From: an uncultured Muribaculaceae bacterium
GTDB taxonomy: Bacteria > Bacteroidota > Bacteroidia > Bacteroidales > Muribaculaceae
Length of the DNA stretch: 41,967 bases
Assembly (NCBI GenBank): GCA_947525975.1
Contig: CANNVE010000023.1
Span: 1-41,967 of the forward strand
Direction: 5' to 3'
A program made the position numbers and the translations under genes. The stretch's first letter is position 1; every line of letters starts with the position of its first letter. Shown here one piece after another: positions 40,999-41,967 of this stretch. The notes below the pieces were generated by a model, which did no database searches, was not told where the DNA came from, and worked only from the letters and a program-made list of their open reading frames with translations.

Positions 40999-41229
40999 TT
41001 CCGCGCAGCCCTCACCGGGCTGCGATTTACGGGGGAGGGCCCATTTACCTCGGGTTTTACCCGAGGCTACTTTCCCCACGCCCGCTCACCGCGGGCTCGT
41101 CCCCCACCGAATGGGATTACGCTAACGGAAGCCCGCGGTGAGCGGGCGTGAGGATAGTAGCCCAGGGCAAAGCCCTGGGGGGGAATAAATACATCTAATA
41201 ATATCGCAGCCCGGCGAGGGCTGTGCGGA
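40999..41229. repeat. Left REP/BIME-like nested palindromic mosaic
   Basis: Six hairpins occur in order A-B-C-C'-B'-A'. A: CGCAGCCC/GGGCTGCG (41004-41024). B: CCTCGGGT/ACCCGAGG (41048-41066). C: GCCCGC/GCGGGC (41080-41096). C' (41131-41147) is the exact reverse complement of C. B' is CCCAGGGC/GCCCTGGG (41161-41179). A' (41205-41226) is nearly the reverse complement of A. The outer 27 nt (41000-41026 and 41203-41229) are inverted repeats with two mismatches. The whole is a symmetric, MITE- or BIME-like unit starting at the DUF1846 stop codon. Confidence 0.85.
41077..41150. repeat. 21-bp perfect inverted repeat core of the left mosaic
   Basis: 41077-41097 and 41130-41150 are exact reverse complements of each other. 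They enclose a 32-nt spacer that contains ACCGAATGGGATTACGCTAA. Each arm also folds into a small hairpin of its own, so two alternative structures (one large cruciform or two small hairpins) are possible. Confidence 0.9.
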
Positions 41230-41260
41230 TCCGAATTCATCAACATTCACAATATACACC

Positions 41261-41719
41261 ATGAGAAACTTCAGCCAAATATACATAATGCTCGTATTTG
41301 GTGTAAAATATCGCTTAGGACTGATCGACCCACAATGGTCCCACCAACTTTATGCCGTAATCGGCAATAAATTAAAGGACTATGGATGCGCACCTATTAT
41401 CATTGGAGGTGTCAAAGACCACGTGCACATACTATTCTCATCCAACGGCAACGTATCTATTTCTGAAATAGTCAAAGAAATCAAGATTGATTCCACACGA
41501 TGGATTAATTCCAACAGATTGACTATTGGCAATTTCGGATGGCAAGAAGGCAGCGGACGCTTCAGTTATTCATTCGGGCAAATTGAGGACGTGAAAAGAT
41601 ACATCGCAAATCAACCCACCCACCACAATCAAATTTCATTTCGCAAAGAAATGGAATCAATGATCATAAGGGCAGGGCAATTGCCAGGCAAATTCGATTT
41701 GCCGGAAGAATTAGAATGA
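41261..41719 (+). CDS. IS200/IS605-type Y1 transposase, RAYT-like
   Basis: This 152-residue protein resembles single-domain HUH transposases of the TnpA/REP-associated tyrosine transposase group. It has the N-terminal SQIYIMLVFGVKYR strand, the HUH motif HVH (residues 54-56 in VKDHVHILFS) and FGWQEGSGRFSYS. The probable nucleophile is Tyr114 (VKRYIANQ), followed by THHNQISFRKE. The length is normal for the family, so the gene looks intact. Codon use is markedly more AT-rich than the neighbouring genes, indicating separate ancestry. It is flanked on both sides by related palindromic repeats in the arrangement known for RAYT genes and their REP elements. No TnpB is present. Confidence 0.88.
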   Translation: MRNFSQIYIMLVFGVKYRLGLIDPQWSHQLYAVIGNKLKDYGCAPIIIGGVKDHVHILFSSNGNVSISEIVKEIKIDSTRWINSNRLTIGNFGWQEGSGRFSYSFGQIEDVKRYIANQPTHHNQISFRKEMESMIIRAGQLPGKFDLPEELE

Positions 41720-41723
41720 AGCG

Positions 41724-41967
41724 TTCCGCGCAGCCCTCACCGGGCTGCGATTGACGGGGGGGGACCCATTTACCTCGGGTTTCACCCGAGGCTACTATCC
41801 CCACGCCCACTCACCGCGGGCTCGTCCCCCACCGGATGGGATAACGCTAACGAAGCCCGCTCTCCGCGGGCTTGCCCACCCCACCGGATGGGATAACGCT
41901 TACGGAAGCCCGCTCACCGCGGGCTCGTCCCCCACCGGATGGGATAACGCTAACGAAGCCCGCTCTC
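41724..41967. repeat. Right REP-like palindromic repeat block, cut by the window edge
   Basis: 41724-41860 repeats the first half of the left block (40999-41136) in the same orientation, with about nine differences and one single-base gap by eye. It contains hairpins A, B and C in order. Beyond it the block continues as tandem units to the end of the window; the mirrored half (C'-B'-A') is not seen before the edge. Confidence 0.85.
41828..41967. repeat. 51-52-bp tandem repeat array
   Basis: The phrase ACCGGATGGGATAACGCT starts at 41831, 41883 and 41934, giving periods of 52 and 51 nt. Each unit also contains a GCCCGC-loop-GCGGGC hairpin. Loops alternate between TCTCC and TCACC. A single diverged copy (ACCGAATGGGATTACGCT) occurs in the left block at 41106. 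The array continues past the window. Confidence 0.88.

Follow-up and report, generated by a model that had tools for sequence, protein, structure and literature searches.

The question raised by the stretch of DNA described here is whether a transposase gene which lies among GC-rich hairpins in a member of the Muribaculaceae is the cognate enzyme of a family of palindromic repeats, as RAYTs are of REPs. The window, that is the whole stretch analysed, is 41,967 nucleotides long, and makes up all of contig C23 of a genome of 2.90 Mb assembled in 56 contigs. REPs and the transposases associated with them pose a standing puzzle, the long-term keeping of a harmless mobile enzyme, and the best studied partners of REPs are class-2 enzymes. 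The reading that we favour, and to which we assign a probability of about 70%, is that the locus is REPtron-like, and that a single-copy IS200-type enzyme of subclass 1.2 is likely cognate to the composite palindromes which flank it and are dispersed in the genome. This reading draws on the observed anatomy of the locus, the dispersal of the units, the covariation of their stems, the single-copy state of the gene, the near genome-specificity of the repeats and their co-occurrence with the gene in one genus. If true, a partner system of subclass 1.2 would be an independent case for what RAYT domestication requires, and would account for a set of genome-specific palindromes in Bacteroidota.

The gene is tnpA-like (41261..41719, plus strand), and encodes a Y1 HUH transposase of 152 aa, recognized by Pfam and by its motifs. 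The protein matches Y1_Tnp (PF01797) at 74.9 bits, and NF033573 at 51.8 bits, slightly below the cut-off of 55 set for that model. The HUH motif DHVH is encoded at ~41417-41428 and the catalytic tyrosine, within YIANQPTHH, at ~41600-41602, both on the plus strand; a WQ motif is present as well. GC-rich hairpins occur on both sides of the gene, and a direct repeat of 129 nt is common to the left and right blocks at 94% identity, which bears out the preliminary description of a Y1 HUH transposase gene set between related hairpin blocks. The repeated entity is a unit of ~98 bp made of three hairpins, called A, B and C. Unit 1 (40999..41097, plus strand, 102.7 bits with a covariance model) includes A at 41004-41024, B at 41048-41066 and C at 41080-41096. 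Unit 2 (41130..41230, minus strand, 93.8 bits) is inverted with respect to unit 1, and the C ends of the two are joined by a linker (41098..41129) holding CCGAATGGGATTACGCTAACGGA. The left block is hence a REPIN-like inverted pair, with arms of 46 nt which are 87% complementary. To the right of the gene, unit 3 (41724..41822, plus strand, 97.5 bits) leads into an array of hairpin C plus linker (41805..41967, plus strand), spaced by 51-52 bp, which runs off the contig end; the linker ACCGGATGGGATAACGCT is found there in exact form at 41831, 41883 and 41934. The final 47 bases of the window coincide with the initial 47 bases of contig C14, where an inverted unit follows. Because of this overlap and of the closing inverted unit, C23 and C14 are probably adjacent in the genome. 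As the window ends inside the right-hand array, and the matching inverted unit is found on C14, the assembly interrupts the right block.

Each hairpin varies among copies around a recognizable core. Hairpin A reads GCAGCCC TCACC GGGCTGC or GCACCCC TCGCC GGGGTGC, hairpin B CCTCGGG TTTCA CCCGAGG or CCCAGGG CTTTG CCCTGGG, hairpin C GCCCGC TCACC GCGGGC, all with variants. The TCACC loops noticed at the outset are thus present in hairpins A and C, and are replaced in some copies by TCGCC or TCTCC. Folded as single-stranded DNA, the 99-base unit has a z of -5.4, and equal stability was reached in none of 200 shuffles. Among the 11 genomic copies, 97.4% of the 231 stem cells are paired, and four pairs have changed on both sides; the covariation score of these copies was matched by none of 500 shuffles, and the signal was lost when the partners were slid. 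In unit 1 the sequence CTAC at 41067..41070, which is GTAG on the minus strand, lies at the 5' foot of hairpin B. The REP tetranucleotide is likewise GTAG, and it matters for cleavage in class-2 systems, as reported in the source consulted (PMC8266576). Directly 5' of hairpin B on the minus strand, GTAG is found in 9 of the 11 copies and ATAG in 2; hairpins A and C carry no GT[AG]G foot. The units had been described as unlike the enterobacterial REP consensus. This is only partly right, since hairpin B does carry the GTAG foot of REPs in most copies.

The assignment of the enzyme is less immediate. Subclass 1.2 of the Y1 transposases has been described as a group of low-copy proteins of Cyanobacteria and Bacteroidetes, of median length 148 aa, carrying the motif Y---Q--HH (Quentin et al. 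2018, PMC6006769). Y---Q--HH, DH[IV]H, WQ, a short protein and a low copy number, which are traits of this subclass, are found in the window protein. The class-2 RAYT motif Y---NP is absent, YIANQ being found instead. Because the Y motif and WQ match subclass 1.2, and Y---NP is missing, the enzyme is placed by motifs and length in TnpA_Y1 subclass 1.2, not among class-2 RAYTs. Y114, Q118, H121 and H122 are invariant across 46 aligned sequences, homologues having been partly fetched by that same motif. At E <= 0.001 a profile of nine homologues retrieved eight distinct PDB sequences; each is a transposase, and ISHp608 ranks first. With the window protein alone, matches to solved structures were weak (best E 0.077). 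The PDB entry 2xm3 is taken by us to be ISDra2. In its own genome the window protein is the only one above the PF01797 cut-off, and the gene is thus single-copy. The weaker matches at C1:131862 (21.5 bits) and C3:650 (14.8 bits) are either different in kind or not long enough to be judged, and the genome yielded no further close copy of the gene.

The resemblance to known systems is therefore partial in each direction. With IS200/IS605 elements such as IS608 and ISDra2, which according to the source consulted recognize hairpins with a 5' guide tetranucleotide (PMC8266576), the window enzyme shares transposase core and motifs, but its own genome lacks the multiple near-identical full copies which are a trait of those elements. 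With class-2 RAYTs, or TnpA_REP, as in the E. coli REPtron, the locus shares a single-copy Y1 gene, inverted palindrome pairs, dispersed copies, a GTAG hairpin foot (here that of hairpin B), and a repeat family specific to genome and enzyme; it departs from them in having Y---Q--HH rather than Y---NP, and three hairpins per unit. The number of repeats differs as well, 11 full units being found here versus the >100 given as usual for REPs per genome (PMC2817692, as far as consulted). The RAYT-REP arrangement initially proposed stands as far as the single Y1 gene, the inverted palindromes and the dispersed copies are concerned, and does not stand for the enzyme itself; the RAYT label holds in the sense that the system would work like one, not as class-2 membership. 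Subclass 2.6 of Bacteroidetes, described in the classification cited above as carrying YIH[QN]NP, with a median length of 179 aa and structures without a GT[AG]G foot (PMC6006769), is similar in being a Bacteroidetes Y1 gene with atypical flanking secondary structures and copies elsewhere in the genome. The window enzyme, however, belongs to a different protein class, and hairpin B has a GTAG foot. As for subclass 1.2, Table 1 of the same classification marks it 'no' for REPs, and the subclass is characterized there as devoid of IS properties and generally of typical IS200 end structures (PMC6006769). The window protein resembles it in Y---Q--HH, WQ, a length of ~150 aa, low copy number and a Bacteroidetes host; yet the window and many homologues have flanking, often multi-hairpin repeats, which in several genomes are dispersed. 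A literature search covering open papers found no published REP partner for subclass 1.2.

Dispersal is evident in the own genome. The covariance model identified 11 full units (93.8-108.7 bits), plus two weak matches (31.2 and 33.1 bits); unit counts of this kind, as those given below for relatives, homologue loci and the genus surveyed, can miss copies, and a palindromic unit may match on both strands at one place, so that matches are not always separate copies. Three of the full units lie in the window, one at the start of C14, and seven at five places elsewhere. The latter include two inverted pairs (C33:8778-8984 and C42:10135-10341) and three single units (C33:11580, C14:78775 and C39:13383). 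The units are thus scattered around the genome, as had been envisaged, and not confined to the transposase locus. In a mechanical reading of ORFs, the five distant places fall between long ORFs, one of them just 3' of a tRNA-Cys gene. Some overlapping frames stay open through the GC-rich units, as the one of 477 codons at C33:11580, which has no Pfam match, and the dispersed units are apparently intergenic. In the two dispersed pairs the A ends are joined, by GGATAACGCATACATTCC or a near copy of it; in the pair left of the gene the C ends are joined, by a related linker. There are three copies of the ACCGGATGGGATAACGCT linker in the window, and a fourth where C14 begins. The part which is dispersed is the three-hairpin unit, not the linker: of the hairpins and linkers first described as units, the linker is real, but it is the composite unit that is dispersed.

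The repeats are nearly specific to this genome. In 60 relatives, 36 of the same genus, no comparable unit was found, the search yielding seven weak matches in 4 genomes (best 35.3 bits) with filters which are strict when more than 40 genomes are searched. An enzyme homologue at E <= 0.001 is missing in 26 of the 60 relatives, and equal abundance of the units in relatives devoid of the enzyme, one of two outcomes named beforehand as counting against the preliminary description, was not observed. Among 397 genomes of the family, DNA matching unit plus gene was found in the own genome (G000) only, and single short matches in 3 others. One of the genomes with a short match, G201, encodes a subclass 1.2 homologue as well. 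The units flanking it differ in sequence from those of the window but are laid out alike, with hairpin A first, then a bulged hairpin B with CTAC after it, and finally hairpin C. The G201 unit gave 17 matches, 12 of which on 8 contigs other than that of the gene. When 16 of these units were aligned by MAFFT (one of the 17 matches being omitted), AGGCTAC was found next to the place of hairpin B in 15. In G299, identified through the repeat and not through the gene, an inverted pair has the same order of B and C. G368 carries a homologue amid other hairpins, and its own unit matches twice, both times on the contig of the gene. It may be added that hairpin B of G201 (L185, on G201:C11, and dispersed units) has an internal mismatch between paired stretches, which recalls the bulged REP of E. 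coli.

Homologues provide a wider view. Loci were taken from named records, as the best 80 of at least 562 confirmed relatives, one of the two search patterns holding the Y motif; their titles are mostly from Bacteroidota, a few from Ignavibacteria, Melioribacteraceae, Balneolaceae, Chloroflexi or Anaerolineales, and Cloacimonadota. Hairpin density near homologues is in modest excess (3.0 vs 1.8 per kb), and repeats shared by the left and right flanks were therefore used as a test. With flanks of 400 bp and a local score of at least 44, and leaving aside 6 of the 80 loci where a flank was shorter than 200 bases, upstream and downstream flanks had a repeat in common at 46 of 74 loci, and at 6 of 298 control ORFs taken from these loci (Fisher 1e-32); the other 28 loci have no flank repeat in common at this threshold. 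The best flank segment, determined in 16 loci, was long in 12 (109-254 bases, mostly with several hairpins or stems), and short or weak in 4. Flank units of these 16 loci were queried in 15 genomes, and nearly all matches fell within the genome of origin. Among the matches listed, copies on at least two further contigs or places were found in 7 of the 15 genomes (G000, G013, G046, G061, G063, G064 and G066), at one other place in 2 (G048 and G062), and on the contig of the gene only in 6 (G010, G049, G055, G060, G065 and G067). Dispersal is clear in G000, G013, G046 and G061, and partial or based on few matches in G063, G064 and G066; the distant matches of G064 are fragments of 32-48 bases, and one match of G063 runs well across the query junction, others by a few bases. 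Next to the homologue at L106 (G067:C34:29867-32826), a repeat of 174 bp occurs at least eight times in 3 kb of one contig, as an array rather than a dispersed family. In homologue flanks, 23 of 570 hairpin feet are GTAG, against 32 of 3968, a 5.0-fold enrichment which is the highest of 15 listed tetranucleotides, and its p value is the second-lowest, ATAT having the lowest. GTAG feet occur in 11 of the 80 loci, seven of them of Flavobacterium; the foot is a feature of some repeat families, not of all. Taken as a comparison of sequences, these data suggest that gene-plus-palindrome pairs recur among subclass 1.2 homologues, and that the listing of the subclass as having no REP partner is incomplete.

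Whether the number of repeats follows the enzyme was assessed in the genus of G061, which is Flavobacterium as judged by locus L084 (Flavobacterium denitrificans). The L084 repeat family served as query in 80 of 121 drawn genus genomes, taken in handle order. Of the 15 genomes with an orthologue (at least 59% identity), 14 have the repeat, as do 11 of the remaining 65 (Fisher 4e-8), the test being uncorrected for phylogeny or for similarity to the genome of the query. Mean matches amount to 12.1 with a close orthologue vs 0.48 without. Among the 65, more distant homologues only are found in 23 genomes, 9 of which with the repeat, and none at E <= 1e-20 in 42, 2 of which with the repeat. Copy number tracks the enzyme subfamily for this one repeat family in this one genus. 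There are exceptions: the repeat is missing from G124 in spite of the gene, while G121, G104 and G105, which lack a close orthologue, give 12, 5 and 4 matches, respectively. Possession of the orthologue goes with a larger genome (p = 0.002); among genomes of at least 4.5 Mb, three or more repeat matches are found in 9 of 9 with the orthologue vs 3 of 16 without. In 11 of the 15 genomes, one and the same neighbour gene is found no more than 0.8 kb from the orthologue (the position of the neighbour in G085 is not listed). For five Flavobacterium homologues, dN/dS is ~0.05-0.13 in the 9 pairs, out of 10, for which it could be computed, at high dS values (0.8-2.8). In this genus, the gene thus behaves as one retained under purifying selection rather than as one which jumps. 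G116 has only part of a homologue (G116:C25:82813-83121), interrupted by an in-frame stop and situated near the usual neighbour, along with 2 repeat matches; the locus looks decaying, and the genome was scored as lacking the orthologue.

Other explanations can be envisaged. The locus could be the one full copy left of a plain insertion sequence of the IS200/IS605 kind, with gene-less derivatives having arisen from its end hairpins. Gene-less derivatives of insertion sequences go under the names of MITEs or PATEs. The protein is indeed IS200-like, its best matches among solved structures are IS200/IS605 transposases, and gene-less units are more numerous than the gene. Yet a complete unit is found on each side of the gene, and gene-less copies therefore do not correspond to a left end plus a right end. 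The own genome, moreover, offers no second close gene copy, just two weak Y1-like matches of other kinds, and both the fixed neighbour in 11 of 15 Flavobacterium genomes and the purifying selection on homologues are at odds with this origin, which we regard as unlikely.

It is decidedly unlikely that a different enzyme mobilises the palindromes, and that the subclass 1.2 gene is just a bystander in a region rich in repeats. A candidate would be the second Y1-like ORF at C1:131862, which is of another class (PDHAH, YIRDNP), but this is flanked by a hairpin of its own, GCGGACTTGTCCGC, not by the three-hairpin unit. A second palindrome family without a known enzyme is found near some units, and some genomes of Flavobacterium carry repeats without a close orthologue; against this, the sharing of flank repeats is gene-specific when compared with control ORFs across 74 homologue loci, and in Flavobacterium the occurrence of one repeat family parallels that of its enzyme subfamily. 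REPs elsewhere have gained regulatory roles, and the units lie in apparently intergenic DNA, as would be expected if they were host hairpins (terminators, mRNA stabilisers or gyrase sites) duplicated by recombination and not mobile. However, 1 terminator-like site was found at the locus vs a shuffle mean of 1.6, Rfam gave zero matches at the gathering cut-off (seven were sub-threshold, mostly to microRNA hairpin models), and genome-specific families around a gene for a single-strand nuclease are not expected of host regulators. Such an origin is highly improbable.

In the REPtron-like reading which we prefer, and by analogy with the biochemistry of IS200/IS605 and TnpA_REP, the protein would bind a hairpin of the unit in single-stranded DNA, such as the lagging-strand template exposes at the replication fork. 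Guided by the GTAG foot of hairpin B, it would cleave beside the hairpin via the tyrosine. The unit would then be rejoined or copied elsewhere, and the transposase gene itself would stay in place. The locus supplies defined candidate substrates, namely the three hairpins and the GTAG foot. A broader scenario can be put forward tentatively, according to which subclass 1.2 might be a second REP-associated line, spread throughout Bacteroidota, derived from IS200-type enzymes separately from class-2 RAYTs, and acting on composite multi-hairpin units (of three hairpins in the family of the window), the GTAG guide being shared or re-evolved.

Two further palindromes were encountered in the own genome. 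The ORF at C1:131862 (L057:1147-2250) has a long C-terminal part, and the GCGGACTTGTCCGC hairpin is present on both sides of it; ORF and hairpin are possibly another enzyme-palindrome pair. The second palindrome family (GTGGAGGTGCGTTTCTCCGAAACGCACGGGCC and variants) lies near several dispersed units, at L009:1429, L009:1612, L013:1822 and L024:1323.
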